This document shows, in pieces, positions 453 through 20,795 of a stretch of 38,885 bases of DNA. The position numbers and the translations under genes were made by a program. The notes beneath the pieces are model-generated. The model saw only the letters and a list, made by a program, of their open reading frames with translations, was not told where the DNA came from and ran no database searches. The stretch's first letter is position 1; every line of letters starts with the position of its first letter. The DNA comes from Pseudomonadota bacterium (GTDB lineage Bacteria; Desulfobacterota; Desulfobulbia; Desulfobulbales; SURF-16). Location of the stretch: contig JAHILF010000137.1 in the NCBI GenBank assembly GCA_018897105.1, positions 1 through 38,885 on the forward strand. Reading direction: 5' to 3'.

Positions 453-830
453 ATGGAACGTGTTTTCTTTTCACTTGGCTCTTTACTGGCAGCAGTTGCT
501 GTTGCTGCGGGAGCATACGCTGCTCATGGCGGTGCCTCATTTTTGACTGAAGAGCAGGCAAGCTGGATTGCCAAGGCCGCGCGCTATCAGATGTATCATG
601 CCTTAGCCCTTGTCGCCGTTGCCGGGGCGATCATCCACTGGCCGAAACATTTAAGATTGCTGCAGGTGGCGGGCGGGCTTTTCCTGGCGGGAATTTTCCT
701 TTTTTGCGGCAGTCTTTATCTGTTGGCCTTCTCCGGCATGCATACCGGTTATACAACCCCCGCCGGAGGAATAGCTTTTATGTTGGGCTGGTTGATCATG
801 GCCGCAGCTGTCTGGATCAAGAGAGCTTGA
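453..830 (+). CDS. DUF423 family small membrane protein (YgdD-like)
   Basis: A 125-residue protein with four predicted membrane helices. It follows the DUF423 pattern: an N-terminal helix ending in Gly-Ala-Tyr-Ala-Ala-His-Gly, a central segment with Tyr-Gln-Met-Tyr-His-Ala-Leu-Ala, a helix with Phe-Cys-Gly-Ser-Leu-Tyr, and a C-terminal Thr-Pro-Ala-Gly-Gly followed by Gly-Trp-Leu. E. coli YgdD has the same order and length. The ATG follows a GAAGAGGT ribosome site at a suitable distance. The molecular function of the family is not known; it is an inner-membrane protein. It stands alone and converges on the lipoprotein gene downstream. Confidence 0.88.
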   Translation: MERVFFSLGSLLAAVAVAAGAYAAHGGASFLTEEQASWIAKAARYQMYHALALVAVAGAIIHWPKHLRLLQVAGGLFLAGIFLFCGSLYLLAFSGMHTGYTTPAGGIAFMLGWLIMAAAVWIKRA

Positions 831-1720: not shown

Positions 1721-2086
1721 ATGGCAAATTCAATCTTTAAAAAATGTACCGCTTGCGGCAAGAAGTGGATCGATAAAGCAATTTTTTTATTTGATCCGAC
1801 CATCAGCCTTGTCGGTTACCAGGTTTCGTTTGACACTGCTCTGGAAGCTGGATTTATCCTTTTTAATCATAACTGTGGTACCACCCTGGCTGTACCGGTA
1901 AACAAATTTCAGGATTTGCATCAACTACCTGTTTACATAGAAAACATGACGAATGAAGAAATAAACCCGGAATACTGTCTCCATGAGGATGGCGAGCAGG
2001 ATTGCCAAGCCGGCTGCGAATGTTTTCATGTGAAAAAGATAATGAATATTATAAAATTATGGCCAAAGAAAAGATGCAAATCATGA
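1721..2086 (+). CDS. Cys-rich protein of unknown function, copy 1
   Basis: A 121-residue soluble protein that I cannot name. It is a paralogue of the gene at 18526-18924. Both have an N-terminal CxxC (here C9, C12), a Phe-Leu-x-Asp-Pro...Gly-Tyr-Gln segment, Leu-Phe-Asn-His-x-Cys-Gly-Thr-Thr (H50, C52) and a C-terminal C-x8-C-x3-C-x-C (C86, C95, C99, C101), followed by an amphipathic Ile-Met-x-Ile-Ile-Lys-x-Trp helix. The fixed Cys/His spacing suggests one or two structural zinc sites or an iron-sulfur cluster. It has no signal peptide or membrane segment, so it is probably cytoplasmic. It is AT-richer than its paralogue. A weak GGA ribosome site precedes the ATG. It stands alone with its own candidate promoter. 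Confidence 0.75.
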   Translation: MANSIFKKCTACGKKWIDKAIFLFDPTISLVGYQVSFDTALEAGFILFNHNCGTTLAVPVNKFQDLHQLPVYIENMTNEEINPEYCLHEDGEQDCQAGCECFHVKKIMNIIKLWPKKRCKS

Positions 2087-2285: not shown

Positions 2286-2655
2286 GCTACAGGAATACTC
2301 CTTCAGTTTTATCCCCCCTGTTGTTGTTTGAAGTTGCTTTGGTTTTGCAAATGCATTTATCCGAAAGTCCTTTCCCCAGCGCGTAATGCATCCTACCCCG
2401 CGAACTTTCATGCATTGTTGTTCCCGCTTGCGGAGATGGGGGTTAGCCGATTTCAATTTTCTTCCCTTATCACGTTAGCGCTGCAGGAATTTTATCAGAA
2501 GTTTGGCCGGATAAATGACCTTTTTTTTGTGCCGTGTGCCGGTAAAGATAAGTTTTTGCTTAAAAGATGAAATGAATTGCCGGCTATAGTATATTGGCCC
2601 GCAAGAATAGATAGGTAATCAATGATGATAATTGTTGCTGGAAAAGGAGTTTGCT
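2286..2655. other. Gene-free stretch upstream of the alcohol dehydrogenase
   Basis: I see no credible gene. An 80-codon frame (2328-2570) lacks a ribosome site and protein-like character. A TATAGTATA motif near 2586 could be part of the promoter for the dehydrogenase gene, but no good -35 box sits at the right distance. Confidence 0.4.
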
Positions 2656-3801
2656 ATGTTTGATTTTGTCTTTCACAATCCGACGAAGATTGTCTTTGGC
2701 CGCAAAAAGGAAGAATCAATCGGTGAGGAACTGAAAAGTGCCGGGATGGGCAAGGTGCTGTTTGTCTATGGGCAGAACTCGATTAAACGCTCCGGCCTTT
2801 TTGATCGCATTACGGCAAGTCTCAAAAAAAACGGCATCAATTATGCGGAATTCGGCGGGGTGGTGTCAAATCCGGTCATCTCCCATACCAGGCAAGGGGT
2901 GGAACTGGCAAAGCGGGAAGGGGTGGATGCCATTCTGGCCGTTGGCGGCGGGTCGGTGCTTGATGAAAGCAAGGCCATTGCGGTGGGCGTCCTGGCAGAT
3001 GACGATGTCTGGAACTATTTCACCGGCAAGGAAGTCACCAGGGCCCTGCCGGTCTTTACGGTGATTACCCTGGCCGCCACCGGCAGCGAAATGAACGGCA
3101 ATGCGGTGGTTACCAACGAAGAGACAAAGCAGAAATATAATATCGGTTCTCCCCATGTCTATCCCAGGGTGTCCATTCTCAACCCTGAGCTGACCTGCAC
3201 CGTGCCCCTCAGCTATTCGGCCTTTGGTGCGGTGGATGCCATTGCCCATGTGATTGAAGGTTATTTTACCAGGCAGGCAGGTTCCCATCTGCAGGACCGA
3301 CTGGTTGAAGGCATCATTAAGACCGTGATTGAGACCAACAATGTGATCATGCAGGAGCCTGATAATTACGCAGCCAGGGCGGAATTCATGTGGGCGGCGA
3401 CCCTGGCGCTGAACGGTTTGACCACGGCCGGGCTCAAGGAGTATAGTTTTCCAAACCATATGGTAGAGCATTCTCTCAGTGCCATCTACAATATCGCCCA
3501 TGGGGCCGGGCTGGCCATCGTCATGCCTGCCTGGATGAAGTGGTATTCGTTAAAAGCGCCTGAACGTTTTGCCCGCTTTGCCCGGGAGGTTTTCGGGATT
3601 GAGGGAGCTGCAGCGGGGATAAGCGCCCTGGAAGTGTGGTTTGCCGCCATTGGTGCCCCGATCCGTTTACAGGACGCCGATATCCCGGCCGGGGATATCG
3701 GCATGATCGCGGAAAATGCTGCGGCACTGGCCACCCTGTGGGGCATCGGGGATACATACAGCAAGGAAGTGATTGCTGAAATTCTGCAACTGGCCGTCTG
3801 A
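2656..3801 (+). CDS. Iron-containing alcohol dehydrogenase, YqhD/BdhA type
   Basis: A 381-residue group III alcohol dehydrogenase that probably reduces aldehydes to alcohols with NAD(P)H in the cytoplasm. The start at 2656 has AAGGAG six bases upstream; an upstream ATG at 2632 would place the ribosome site inside the gene. The dinucleotide fold carries Gly-Gly-Gly-Ser (97-100) followed by Asp and Lys. The metal ligands of this family are all present and match E. coli YqhD spacing: D194 and H198 in Val-Asp-Ala-Ile-Ala-His, then H268 and H282 fourteen residues apart. Length is normal for the family. It stands alone, with the yqaA-like gene 78 bases further on. Substrate cannot be told from sequence. 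Confidence 0.93.
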   Translation: MFDFVFHNPTKIVFGRKKEESIGEELKSAGMGKVLFVYGQNSIKRSGLFDRITASLKKNGINYAEFGGVVSNPVISHTRQGVELAKREGVDAILAVGGGSVLDESKAIAVGVLADDDVWNYFTGKEVTRALPVFTVITLAATGSEMNGNAVVTNEETKQKYNIGSPHVYPRVSILNPELTCTVPLSYSAFGAVDAIAHVIEGYFTRQAGSHLQDRLVEGIIKTVIETNNVIMQEPDNYAARAEFMWAATLALNGLTTAGLKEYSFPNHMVEHSLSAIYNIAHGAGLAIVMPAWMKWYSLKAPERFARFAREVFGIEGAAAGISALEVWFAAIGAPIRLQDADIPAGDIGMIAENAAALATLWGIGDTYSKEVIAEILQLAV

Positions 3802-3879: not shown

Positions 3880-4326
3880 TTGGAGAATTTCCTTGCCGAT
3901 CATGGCCTGCCGGCCTTATTCCTGCTCAGTTTCTTGGCTTCCACCGTCATTCCGCTGGGTTCGGAATGGCTGGTGGTGACACTCATCCTGAAGAGTTATC
4001 AGCCCGAATATGTGGTGGCAGTTGCCACGGCAGGGAATTATCTCGGCGCCTGCACGACCTATTTTGTCGGTCTGTGGGGCGCTGGTTTTTTGATAAAAAA
4101 GGTCATGCGAATTGACGAGGCCAGCCTTGCCAGAGCACAGTTTTTTTACCGTCGCTACGGTTCATGGTCCCTGCTTTTTTCGTGGCTTCCGGTAATCGGC
4201 GATCCGCTCTGCCTGGCGGGTGGAGCATTGCGCATCAATTTCATCCTGTTTTCCCTGCTGGTTTTTGCTGGCAAGCTGGCCCGTTATGCAGTAATAGCAG
4301 CGGTAACAGCATCAGCCATGCGCTGA
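3880..4326 (+). CDS. YqaA family (DedA-like) inner-membrane protein
   Basis: A 148-residue membrane protein of the DedA/VTT superfamily, YqaA branch. Characteristic pieces are an early helix with Phe-Leu-Ala-Ser-Thr-Val-Ile-Pro-Leu-Gly-Ser-Glu, then Ala-Thr-Ala-Gly-Asn-Tyr-Leu-Gly, then Arg-Tyr-Gly-x-Trp-Ser-Leu-Leu-Phe-Ser-Trp-Leu-Pro-Val-Ile-Gly-Asp, and a last helix with Gly-Lys-x-x-Arg-Tyr. E. coli YqaA has the same order and length. DedA-type proteins take part in lipid-carrier or phospholipid transport across the membrane; the role of YqaA itself is not settled. No ATG is available; the TTG at 3880 gives the right length, but no clear ribosome site precedes it, so the start is uncertain. 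Confidence 0.82.
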   Translation: MENFLADHGLPALFLLSFLASTVIPLGSEWLVVTLILKSYQPEYVVAVATAGNYLGACTTYFVGLWGAGFLIKKVMRIDEASLARAQFFYRRYGSWSLLFSWLPVIGDPLCLAGGALRINFILFSLLVFAGKLARYAVIAAVTASAMR

Positions 4327-17603: not shown

Positions 17604-18155
17604 TCAGTTGCCCATCGTTACAGGTTCCGCCTGCTGCTCCTCATTGATGGGCACCGGCTGAGCATCTTCTCCCTGTTCGGGGATGTATTCCTCTTCAGGC
17701 CCCTGTGGCTGGTTTTCATCATAACCCGGATCAGGGACATACTCTTCGGAAGGCTCCTGGGGCTGGCTTTCGTCATAACCCGGATCAGGGACATACTCTT
17801 CGGAAGGTTCCTGGGGCTGGCTTTCATCATAACCCGGATCAGGGACATACTCTTCGGAAGGCCCCTGGGGCTGGTTTTGGTCATAACCCGGATCAGGGAT
17901 ATACTCTTCGGAAGGCCCCTGTGGCTGGTTTTCATCATAACCCGGATCAGGTTCGTATTGTTCATCCGAGCCCTGGGGGGCTTCCGCTTCCTCTCTCAGT
18001 TGTTCTTCCTGTGCGGGCGGCAGAACATCAGGTTCCTGTTCCGCCTCGGCAAGCTGGACATAGGCAAAAACGGGGGAGAATTGTTTGACAGGAAACAAGA
18101 AAATTGTTGCGACAAATATGATAAAGGCTGCTCGGCGTATGATTTTTTTTCTCAT
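17604..18155 (-). CDS. Exported acidic repeat protein
   Basis: A 183-residue protein. The start Met-Arg-Lys-Lys-Ile-Ile-Arg-Arg followed by a hydrophobic core and Val-Phe-Ala is a Sec signal peptide with likely cleavage near residue 30. The mature part is very rich in Glu, Pro, Gln and Tyr and contains five 18-residue tandem units built on Pro-Asp-Pro-Gly-Tyr-Asp-Glu-x-Gln-Pro-Gln. No Cys and no lipobox occur. It is probably a flexible periplasmic or surface protein; the acidic Tyr/Pro repeats might bind cations. The ATG at 18155 has GAGG 7 bases upstream, better than the ATG at 18161. On the minus strand a T8 run follows the gene near 17585, which may end transcription, and a TATAAT lies at 18210-18215 upstream. 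Function unknown. Confidence 0.78.
   Translation of the reverse strand: MRKKIIRRAAFIIFVATIFLFPVKQFSPVFAYVQLAEAEQEPDVLPPAQEEQLREEAEAPQGSDEQYEPDPGYDENQPQGPSEEYIPDPGYDQNQPQGPSEEYVPDPGYDESQPQEPSEEYVPDPGYDESQPQEPSEEYVPDPGYDENQPQGPEEEYIPEQGEDAQPVPINEEQQAEPVTMGN
17690..17959 (-). repeat. 54-bp tandem repeat, five units, coding
   Basis: The block ATAACCCGGATCAGG recurs at 17721, 17775, 17829, 17883 and 17937, exactly 54 bases apart. Each unit encodes one 18-residue repeat of the exported acidic protein. Units differ at a few bases, so copy number may vary between strains without shifting the frame. Confidence 0.95.
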
Positions 18156-18525
18156 GGTCATCCTCGATTCAGAAAATTAAGCTAACAACGAAGCCATTCA
18201 TTGCGGATAATTATAATCCTTATTTATTGCTTGCACCATGCTATTTTTTTATAATCAGCCTGCCAGAGGGCAAAGATTGCAGGAAAAACGGCTGAGCCGG
18301 GAAAAGAATGTCAATCCTGCAGCGGGTTAGGGTTTTTTCTTGCATTTGTCTAAATTTTGGCATAGCAATAAGAGGCGTAGCGTAAATTCATGGAAAGGGT
18401 AATGGGGATATTTTGATGTTTCGCGCCAGAATCATATTTTTTCTGGCCGGTTTGCTCATTTTTCCCAGTGCAACCGCTGGTGCGGGTTAATGAATGCGCC
18501 AATCTGATCACCACGAGGATTTGCT
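18156..18525. other. Intergenic stretch with one possible mini-ORF
   Basis: Apart from the 24-codon frame at 18416-18490, described separately, nothing gene-like is seen. On the minus strand a perfect TATAAT at 18210-18215 is a candidate -10 box for the repeat-protein gene, without a good -35 box. Confidence 0.4.
18416..18490 (+). CDS. Possible 24-residue signal-peptide-only ORF
   Basis: A GGGGA ribosome site lies 7 bases before the ATG. The peptide has a basic start (Met-Phe-Arg-Ala-Arg), a hydrophobic core (about residues 6-16) and Ser-Ala-Thr-Ala before a stop, which is a full Sec signal peptide with almost nothing after it. It may be the surviving start of a decayed secreted protein, a leader peptide, or chance. 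It lies 35 bases upstream of the second Cys-rich gene on the same strand. Confidence 0.25.
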   Translation: MFRARIIFFLAGLLIFPSATAGAG

Positions 18526-18924
18526 ATGGAGCAGATATTCAAGCAGTGCCCGGCCTGCCGGACAACATGGTTTGCTTGCACGGATTTCCTGGCAGACCCG
18601 TGCCTGCAGCTTATTGGTTATCAGGCGCTGTTCGAAAATCTGAGCAAGGGCCTGTTTCTTTTCAACCATTCTTGCGGCACGACCCTGTCTATCGCCGTGG
18701 AAAACCTGCAGCATCTCTATTCCGGCCCGGTTTACAAGGAAAGTGCCATCGGCAGTAAAAGATGTCCGGGGCACTGCCTCATCAAAAGTGAAACCAGACC
18801 GTGTCCGGTCAAATGCGATTGCGCCTATGTGCGATCAATCATGCAGATCATCAAGAAATGGCATAAGGGGGAAGGCATCTGTGTGAAGTCGGAGGCCGGG
18901 CGGAATCGGCCGTTGCAGAGATGA
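18526..18924 (+). CDS. Cys-rich protein of unknown function, copy 2
   Basis: A 132-residue soluble protein, paralogue of 1721-2086. Shared landmarks: CxxC (C8, C11), Phe-Leu-x-Asp-Pro...Gly-Tyr-Gln, Leu-Phe-Asn-His-Ser-Cys-Gly-Thr-Thr (H48, C50), C84-x8-C93-x3-C97-x-C99, and the final Ile-Met-Gln-Ile-Ile-Lys-Lys-Trp. The spacing of the last four cysteines is identical in both copies, although the overall sequence has diverged considerably. This copy has extra cysteines (C18, C26, C80, C109) and a longer basic tail. GAGGA precedes the ATG by 7 bases. A metal-binding role is inferred; I do not recognise the family name. It converges on the CoA-transferase gene. Confidence 0.78.
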   Translation: MEQIFKQCPACRTTWFACTDFLADPCLQLIGYQALFENLSKGLFLFNHSCGTTLSIAVENLQHLYSGPVYKESAIGSKRCPGHCLIKSETRPCPVKCDCAYVRSIMQIIKKWHKGEGICVKSEAGRNRPLQR

Positions 18925-18941
18925 GATATGACAAAGGCTCG

Positions 18942-20795
18942 TTAAGCAAAATCCTTTTTCAGCTGCTCAAACTGGAATTGAAAGAGCAGATAGTCTTCTT
19001 CGCTTTCAAAATAGATCTTATAGGGCAGGGTCTTTAAAATATGGAGCATGGCCTCGTTTATTTTGAGCACCTCGCCGTTAAAGCCGGCCACGCCTTTTTC
19101 CCGCGCCACATCAATCAGCTTGTGCAGCATGAAACGGGTGAGTCCCTGGTTGCGATATTGCCTGGTCACGGTGAAGGCGATCTCCGCCTGATTGTGGGAG
19201 CGGTCAAGATAATAGGAGCTGATTGAGACAATTTTCTGCTGGTCCGCCGTTCCGACCAGGCCGACCAGCACGAAAACCGACTCATAGTCCACGTTGACGG
19301 CGGACTGGGTCTCCTGGTGGGGAAAGGTGCTTTTCGGCGAGAAGAAGCGCAGCTTGCGGTCCTCCTGATCCAGCTCGTAGTAGAGTTCCTGCAGCATTCT
19401 CTCATCCGTGGGTTTCACCGGTCGGATGAAAACAGGTATCTGGTTGCGCGTGGTGAACTGCCATTCGAATTTTTCCGGATAGACCACCACCACCCCGTCC
19501 TTGGTCTGGGGCAGCATCTGGTCCTCATAGGCAAAGTGCAGCCGTATCGCCTCCGCCAGCAGCTCCTTGCGGAATTTCGGATGGGCAATGCCGATCATCA
19601 GCATGACCCTTTCCCTGATGCTCTTGCCATGGAGATAGGCCACCCCCCATTCGGTCACCACATAATGCACGTCGCTACGCGGCACCACCACCCCTGATCC
19701 CGGTTCCAGCGTGGCGACGATGCGTGATTTTTCTCCGTCATGGGTAAGGCTGGGCAGGCAGATGATGGGTTTGCCCCCTTCGGACAGGGCGGCTCCCTTG
19801 GTGAAATCAAGTTGTCCCCCGACCCCGCTGTAAAAATGGGTGCCGATACTGTCCGAGTTGACCTGCCCGGTCAGCGAAACGGACAGGGCGGCATTCATGG
19901 AAACCATTTTGCTGTTAGCGGCTATATTGACCAGATTATTGATGACTGATGTGGGGTGGAACTCGATAAACGGGTTGTCGTCAACGTAGTCATACAGTTT
20001 TTTGCTGCCGATAACAAAGGAGATCATCACATGGGGGTGGATGTTTTTGCGGCAGTTGACATTCCCTGACTCGATCAGGTCGATAACCGAATCGGACAGG
20101 ACCTCACTGAAAATCGCCAGATCATTCTTGTCCCCCAGATGGCGGAGAACGGCATTGGGAATGGCCCCGATGCCCAGCTGCAGGGTTGAGCCGTTTTCAA
20201 TGAGCCGAGCGCAGTATCTGCCGATTTTTTCCGTTACATCATCCGGCGGCGGGTAGGTAAATTCAAGCAGCGGCGCCTCGTGTTCCACATAGTAGTCAAT
20301 GTCGGCAAAGCGGACAAAAGAGTCCCCGCTGGTCCGCGGCATCAGGGGATTGATCTGGGCTATGACGATTTTGGCGTATTCAAAAACGATTCTGTTGATA
20401 TCCACGTTGATGCCAAGCGAGCAGAAGCCGAATTTAGCCGGTGGGCTCACCTGCAGCAGGGCGACATCGATTCGCAGTCGGCCTGATTTGACCAGTCTGG
20501 GGATATCGGAAAGGGAGATGGGGATATAATCGGCCTTGCCCTCATTGACCGCCTGCCGGATTGATTTGCCGACAAACAGGGCCTGGTGCCTGAACGGGGA
20601 GGGCTGCTGACTGTCAAAGTAGTTGTTCTCCGACAGGGTGAGAAAATGGAGGATCTCGCAATCGGTGAAGTGGTGTTTGTGGGCAACCAACTGCCGGGTC
20701 AGGATGGTCGGCTCGCTGCAGCCGGTGCCGATGAATATCCGGGAGCCGGGCTGGATGATGTTCGTGAGGTCTTCCGGGGAGATTTTCTTGCTCAT
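18942..20795 (-). CDS. Acetyl-CoA hydrolase/CoA-transferase family protein fused to a GNAT domain
   Basis: A 617-residue two-domain protein. Residues 1 to about 440 are a class I CoA-transferase of the 4-hydroxybutyrate/acetyl-CoA type: Gly-Ile-Gly-Ala-Ile-Pro-Asn-Ala-Val (208-216), the catalytic Glu in Ser-Glu-Val-Leu-Ser-Asp (E231) and a late Gly-Gly-Gln-x-Asp-Phe. Residues from about 455 are a GNAT acyltransferase with Ile-Arg-Pro-Val-Lys-Pro-Thr-Asp and a CoA loop in Arg-Gln-Tyr-Arg-Asn-Gln-Gly-Leu. Such fusions are known in anaerobes; the GNAT part may sense acyl-CoA or acylate proteins. A cytoplasmic enzyme that would move CoA between organic acids. A separate GNAT gene lies 31 bases upstream on the same strand. 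The ribosome site is weak (GGA). Confidence 0.9.
   Translation of the reverse strand: MSKKISPEDLTNIIQPGSRIFIGTGCSEPTILTRQLVAHKHHFTDCEILHFLTLSENNYFDSQQPSPFRHQALFVGKSIRQAVNEGKADYIPISLSDIPRLVKSGRLRIDVALLQVSPPAKFGFCSLGINVDINRIVFEYAKIVIAQINPLMPRTSGDSFVRFADIDYYVEHEAPLLEFTYPPPDDVTEKIGRYCARLIENGSTLQLGIGAIPNAVLRHLGDKNDLAIFSEVLSDSVIDLIESGNVNCRKNIHPHVMISFVIGSKKLYDYVDDNPFIEFHPTSVINNLVNIAANSKMVSMNAALSVSLTGQVNSDSIGTHFYSGVGGQLDFTKGAALSEGGKPIICLPSLTHDGEKSRIVATLEPGSGVVVPRSDVHYVVTEWGVAYLHGKSIRERVMLMIGIAHPKFRKELLAEAIRLHFAYEDQMLPQTKDGVVVVYPEKFEWQFTTRNQIPVFIRPVKPTDERMLQELYYELDQEDRKLRFFSPKSTFPHQETQSAVNVDYESVFVLVGLVGTADQQKIVSISSYYLDRSHNQAEIAFTVTRQYRNQGLTRFMLHKLIDVAREKGVAGFNGEVLKINEAMLHILKTLPYKIYFESEEDYLLFQFQFEQLKKDFA

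Follow-up and report, generated by a model that had tools for sequence, protein, structure and literature searches.

Two diverged paralogues of an unnamed cysteine- and histidine-rich family that may hold two metal ions and serve redox enzymes

What are the two small Cys/His-rich proteins encoded in this stretch of DNA, and do they form a maintained pair with a metal or redox function, as an earlier note made from the sequence had suggested? The window, by which we mean the whole 38,885-nucleotide stretch that was analysed, carries both genes on the forward strand. Their features are listed below, and family positions are given throughout in the numbering of the second protein.

1721-2086, + strand: first family gene, an intact open reading frame of 121 aa
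within 1721..2086, + strand: putative N-terminal ligands of the first protein, C9, C12, H50 and C52, from the alignment
within 1721..2086, + strand: putative C-terminal ligands of the first protein, C86, C95, C99 and C101, the first C-terminal Cys of the family being lost (N82)
18526-18924, + strand: second family gene, an intact open reading frame of 132 aa, with GAGG seven bases before the ATG
within 18526..18924, + strand: putative N-terminal ligands of the second protein, C8, C11, H48 and C50, from the alignment
within 18526..18924, + strand: C-terminal cysteines of the second protein, C80, C84, C93, C97 and C99, from the alignment
18526..18753, + strand: residues 1-76 of the second protein, its N-terminal half, which the model predicts to fold alone and to be zinc-ribbon-like
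18763..18855, + strand: residues 80-110 of the second protein, a C-terminal module of five Cys followed by a helix, from the alignment and the model

The two proteins share 43% identity over 112 aa by BLASTP (97.8 bits, E 2e-32), and the best of 2000 shuffled versions of the first protein reached 21.6 bits against the second under settings similar, but not identical, to those of BLASTP. As aligned, their homology covers the whole length and not the motifs alone. The motif spacing had been described as identical, which holds inside C-x2-C, H-x-C-G-T-T and C-x8-C-x3-C-x-C, and 34 residues separate the HxC cysteine from the C-terminal motif in both proteins, whereas CxxC and HxC are one residue further apart in the first protein (C12 to H50) than in the second (C11 to H48). 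An additional family cysteine absent from that description is C80 of the second protein, which is replaced by N82 in the first. Both genes had also been placed outside operons. The gene layout agrees, as their nearest likely neighbours lie on the opposite strand or, for the first gene, 545 bases downstream; consensus promoter and terminator scans gave no clear excess over shuffled sequence. No signal peptide was visible by eye.

A search of the same genome found no family copy beyond the two window genes; a third match, at E 0.16, contains a stop and was taken as chance. The gene is present in 14 of 58 relatives, the window's own genome counted among them, and three members of the genus (G002, G004 and G005) each carry a pair of copies on a single contig, separated by 10 to 18 kb. 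Their neighbours were compared with those of the window by tblastn, and in all three the second copy is flanked by a repeat-protein gene (17604-18161) and by the gene of 18942-20795. The first copy is adjoined by counterparts of window 453-830 and 920-1435 in G002, by the same two together with the alcohol dehydrogenase of 2632-3801 in G004, and by the alcohol dehydrogenase and the gene of 3880-4326 in G005, where tblastn found no counterpart of 920-1435 beside the first-position copy. The repeat-protein gene, on the minus strand of the window, encodes 185 aa with a hydrophobic N-terminus and about five near-identical PDPGYDENQPQGPSEEY-type repeats, and relatives of it adjoin the second gene in these three genomes.

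A tree was built from 90 of the 94 distinct family sequences described below (without L015, L016, L052 and L082); its deeper forks are mostly unresolved and its bootstrap had not settled. The G002 and G004 counterparts cluster with the first window gene (100/100), five relatives from the genus cluster with the second (100/93), and the first-position copy of G005 (L017) falls outside the cluster of the first gene. Using a Nei-Gojobori script, we obtained dN/dS values of 0.098/0.464 against G002 and 0.180/1.32 against G004 for the first gene, and of 0.090/0.225 and 0.182/0.413, respectively, for the second; against G005, dS was saturated. Since dN is below dS in all four orthologue pairs, both window genes are kept by selection. 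Together with the matching gene positions in three congeneric species and the ligands being among the most conserved columns of the family, this bears out the view that the pair is real and maintained. By sequence comparison, the window genes are paralogues of one family, retained in the genus under purifying selection.

The earlier note could not assign the proteins to a known family, and neither could we. Neither window protein had a match in Pfam or NCBIfam at E 10, or among the PADLOC families at E <= 1, so that no known anti-phage defence protein was matched. Further searches used a set of 43 sequences (A3), made of 41 of the 45 loci described below (without L046, L055, L067 and L082) and the two window proteins; a second set, A4, is A3 without L052 and L069. 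The profile of the 43 members had no match among PDB chains at E 10, and scanning the members gave scattered weak matches only, the best being a generic zinc ribbon in Pfam (PF13717, E 0.0083, 1 member) and napF in NCBIfam (E 0.027, 1 of 43, chance level). Two PHROGs of unknown function were also matched, phrog_4875 by 7 of the 43 members (best E 0.0014; the second window protein at E 0.01 over residues 2-48) and phrog_5624 by 2 of the 43 (best E 0.0013). A profile search had been called for in the earlier note, and no well-described family appeared. Conserved peptide strings of the family and topical terms had no match in the literature searched; PMC10849945 is a catalogue of novel families. 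The family is thus without a name in the searched libraries, and its parts resemble a known general kind, a zinc ribbon with an added Cys site.

Scanning contigs with sequence patterns yielded 45 loci, mostly from metagenome-assembled genomes and bearing the labels of about ten phyla, although the phylum labels of metagenome bins can be wrong. The labels include Deltaproteobacteria/Desulfobacterales and the like, Lentisphaerae, Pirellulaceae, Phycisphaerae, Omnitrophota, Nitrospiraceae/Nitrospirae, Cloacimonadota, Spirochaetes, Chlamydiota, Latescibacterota, Sumerlaeota and Pseudomonadota, and the hosts are presumably mostly anaerobic. Because the patterns favoured C[ED]CAY and FxDLYxGP, part of the conservation at these stretches reflects how the loci were chosen. 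Profile searches are free of this bias and found the family in at least 12 of 395 genomes of the window's own phylum, and in at least 16 of 240, 4 of 294 (one weak), 2 of 198 and 3 of 193 (one partial) genomes of the phyla of L063, L066, L052 and L064, respectively. Each tally counts its own centre genome and is a lower bound, because many genomes had only some of their first-look candidates scored. Overall, the family is widespread but rare. Most of the 37 genomes with a member have one match (32), with two in 4 and three in 1. Searching 72,556 plasmid records with the second window protein gave one relative, located among transposases on a Dongshaea marina plasmid. A phage or mobile-element origin was considered and rejected; pattern scans of viral contigs confirmed no relative and phage records held no match to one member at E 0.01.

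For the ligand analysis we pooled 113 sequences, of which 94 were distinct by core; members found later (L154-L162) stand outside the ligand counts. The most conserved columns are W15, C11, C97, C84, C50, H48, F46, G42, D24, C8, C93 and C80. The N-terminal set C8/C11/H48/C50 (Cys-x2-Cys...His-Cys) is complete in 90 of the 94, the exceptions being L030 (C50 to E), L016 (H48 to C), L052, whose frame starts inside the domain, and L082, whose N-terminal half is missing. At the C-terminal set C80, C84, C93, C97 and C99, the pattern is CCCCC in 67 sequences, CCCCx in 21, xCCCC in 3, all in the clade of the first window gene, and xCHCC in 1, with the set cut off in 2; at least four Cys are kept in 91 of the 94. 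Among the 92 whole C-terminal rows, C84 and C97 are present in 92, C93 in 91, and C80 or C99 in 92. As none of these rows lacks both C80 and C99, the site looks like one with four metal ligands and two ways to supply the fourth, a rule that rests on few independent losses, about seven by our reading of the tree.

Cys-to-His swaps of single ligands occur at metal sites, and here His replaces C93 in the L126 gene (row L121b) and C99 in L158. The two ligand sets also look like separate modules: L030 combines a damaged N-terminal site with a full C-terminal one, and the clade of the first window gene combines a full N-terminal site with a C-terminal site one Cys short. Taken together, these patterns suggest that the family proteins probably hold two metal ions. 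Among the later members, L159 has Tyr at position 99, L157 deviates from the C-terminal motif, L161 is incomplete, and L156, a distant relative, keeps the C-terminal four and lacks the N-terminal set. The L156 open frame, of 206 aa, has another Cys/His stretch N-terminally and C-x3-C-x8-C-x3-C C-terminally. Two members, L015 and L016, end after the N-terminal half and could be pseudogenes or genes with the N-terminal site only. In L150 (9014-9813, minus strand), two family genes lie in tandem, and one has an odd C-terminal set with His replacing a Cys.

The AlphaFold2 model from the 43 sequences has a mean pLDDT of 87.5 and a pTM of 0.78, and that of the N-terminal half alone, from 41 sequences, has a pLDDT of 89.8, a pTM of 0.74 and the same elements as the whole-protein model. 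By predicted secondary structure, each N-terminal ligand pair lies at a turn, C8 and C11 between short strands 6-7 and 14-15 and H48 with C50 between strands 42-48 and 53-57; helix 18-23 and strand 27-34 are modelled between the pairs. The predicted arrangement of the N-terminal half is that of a zinc ribbon with a helix and a strand inserted between the pairs. The earlier note had proposed checking whether the Cys/His residues cluster in a predicted structure, and this finds indirect agreement in the N-terminal ligand pairs at turns, read from secondary structure alone. The C-terminal part is mostly loop in the model, with lower confidence over the Cys loop (pLDDT 77, residues 81-90), and helix 98-110 starts at C97/C99. 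Foldseek gave no match at E <= 0.001 for the whole model or the N-terminal half, nor for the whole model against a viral library; its top matches to the N-terminal half, none better than E 0.5, were unrelated proteins, flavin monooxygenases among them. With VIA-align, the N-terminal half placed NrdR zinc ribbons at ranks 1-5 (Z 3.1-3.6, 44 aa, rmsd 2.7-3.2, all weak) and zinc-binding Mis18/yippee domains at ranks 6 and 8 (Z 2.6-2.7), rank 7 being unrelated, and the whole model had an unrelated complex as its best row (Z 2.8) with NrdR at only Z 2.0-2.4. Such low scores fall short of proving that the fold is shared.

Functional hints come from fusions. One genome (G114) encodes two proteins, in open frames of 325 and 354 aa (L030 and L037), in which the family domain stands before a nitroreductase domain (PF00881, E 1.5e-16 and 2.9e-12). 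In the order of G156 (f70), 14 of 18 genomes have a match, and in all 14 the open frame, 244-305 aa long, is a fusion that carries the family domain C-terminally and a second domain N-terminally; the second domain had no Pfam match in the two fusions examined. The FAD subunit of a molybdenum hydroxylase is encoded directly downstream in 13 of these 14 loci (all except L133). In five longer loci with this subunit, a molybdopterin subunit follows in all five and a separate 2Fe-2S subunit in at least four, and 5 of 6 longer loci of this order have mobB nearby, with an equal count for an iclR-type gene; the genes of the hydroxylase loci were named by Pfam from one example each. The second domain also stands alone: it had a match in 12 of 247 genomes besides G156, of which 11 became loci, and the FAD subunit comes directly after it in 8 of the 11 (not L166, L171 or L174). 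Since the second domain is tied to the FAD subunit whether fused or alone, it belongs with the hydroxylase, the Cys domain being an addition in one order. The fused copies of this order are a far branch of the tree, so their context may not carry over to the window genes. A protein of about 120 aa appears to be an unnamed accessory gene of molybdenum hydroxylase operons (L164, L165, L167, L168, L169, L170, L172 and L173), with the motif RATL...GNEGYIGI.P.G..YHVVVPVD.QIARG...DGTPFGGY.GW.YF; it is also the N-terminal part of the fusions L128-L141.

Elsewhere the neighbourhood is variable. Clustering of neighbours over 46 sequences, the 45 loci and the window, revealed none that is constant through the family. 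The largest shared cluster, ABC-type ATPases, occurs at 6 loci and scattered distances; PAS kinases lie near 5 loci, an alcohol dehydrogenase near 4, and a glucose-6-phosphate dehydrogenase-like gene near 5, in four of them downstream (L057, L065, L067 and L075). We take gatA to follow the family gene in L043, L044 and L046, a tRNA synthetase to adjoin it in L045, L070 and L081, a phosphofructokinase to precede it in L151 and L152, and GroEL to lie upstream in L053 and L055. A phosphofructokinase identified by Pfam precedes the family genes in L150. In L057, L067 and L075, the family gene is directly preceded by a rubrerythrin or ferritin gene; in L067 it is also followed by a DsbD-like gene, and L065 and L075 carry similar ones. 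No obvious redox partner adjoins either window gene. The free-standing majority of the family, both window genes included, gives no contextual support for an accessory role.

We read the family as a small, apparently cytosolic two-metal module, probably for zinc, that would serve redox enzymes. The N-terminal Cys2-His-Cys set would likely be a structural zinc ribbon, and C-terminal C-x3-C-x8-C-x3-C(-x-C) would form a second metal site of four ligands, with C80 and C99 as alternatives for the fourth. Less certainly, the protein may assist cytosolic flavin and molybdenum redox enzymes as an accessory for docking or maturation, a role we propose because it best fits the two separate attachments to redox enzymes; most genomes would use it free-standing and a few as part of a fusion. 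Paralogous proteins with two ligand sets, a zinc ribbon and a second metal site, acting as a redox-enzyme accessory are our best joint explanation, and a tentative one, with somewhat less than an even chance of holding in all its parts. That the family is a two-site metalloprotein module repeatedly fused or partnered to cytosolic flavin and molybdenum enzymes, docking their partners or aiding the maturation of their cofactors, with the window copies as specialised, free-standing forms, is doubtful.

The C-terminal cysteines could instead hold an iron-sulfur cluster, making the protein a small electron carrier that replaces the ferredoxin module in the nitroreductase fusion. Four or five closely spaced and nearly invariant Cys, the fusion itself, the linkage to the molybdenum hydroxylase and the presumed anaerobic hosts all fit this. 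However, no ferredoxin-type Pfam match was found among the 43 members, the PDB search was equally empty for their profile, napF was matched at chance level, and C-x3-C-x8-C-x3-C is not a usual cluster spacing. Because of the His found in place of single Cys in two members and the missing cluster profile match, zinc is the likelier occupant of the C-terminal site, and we consider the iron-sulfur reading unlikely. It is a still slimmer prospect that the protein is a thiol redox switch, in which oxidation would free zinc from the C-terminal cysteines and alter partner binding. A fifth Cys close to where the helix begins, present in most members, the lower model confidence in the Cys loop, the rubrerythrin, ferritin or DsbD-like neighbours in a few loci and what we take to be GroEL upstream in two would suit such a switch, but neighbours of this kind are a small minority of the 45 loci, and 21 of 94 sequences have lost that Cys.

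The NrdR zinc ribbons, as the best, though weak, VIA matches of the N-terminal half, raise the possibility of a nucleic-acid-binding regulator with an NrdR-like use of the ribbon. This we find improbable to a similar degree: the window proteins show no Pfam domain, hence no ATP-cone, and of the two fusion partners the recognised one is an enzyme domain and the other is linked to an enzyme operon. A metal-free cysteine scaffold held by disulfides, which the twin C-x3-C pairs in the C-terminal half might evoke, is very improbable, given that no signal peptide is seen, that Cys are lost singly and not in pairs, and that His substitutes for some.

The fusions with the nitroreductase and in the molybdenum hydroxylase operon are concrete starting points for experiments, and if the accessory role of the two-metal module holds true, a so far unseen small component of these redox enzymes would come within reach. 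None of the profile libraries tested has a name for this conserved family, whose metal-type ligands are near-invariant and which occurs under about ten phylum labels.

Among known systems, the NrdR zinc ribbon shares with the family two ligand pairs at beta turns, and residues 6-63 of the model align on NrdR 1-45 in four of five entries, so that C8 and C11 would fall near Cys3 and Cys6, which we take to be the NrdR ligands. The second ligand pair of NrdR is Cys-x2-Cys, whereas that of the family is His-x-Cys, with a helix and a long strand between the pairs and an extra C-terminal Cys module; unlike NrdR, the window proteins would lack an ATP-cone, having no Pfam domain at E <= 10. The Yippee/Mis18 zinc domain is likewise a small beta domain with two ligand pairs, weakly similar over 60 aligned aa (Z 2.6-2.7), but it is not among the Pfam matches of the 43 members. 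The nitrous oxide-stimulated promoter (YgbA-type) family is a small Cys-rich protein with a different Cys spacing, and its NF007713 match in 1 of 43 members (E 0.043) is at chance level. Nitroreductase-type enzymes often carry a ferredoxin module, and L030 and L037 resemble such fusions in having a Cys-rich module ahead of the nitroreductase domain; they differ in that the module, found in 1 of 12 genomes of that class, is not a ferredoxin but this Cys-rich family.
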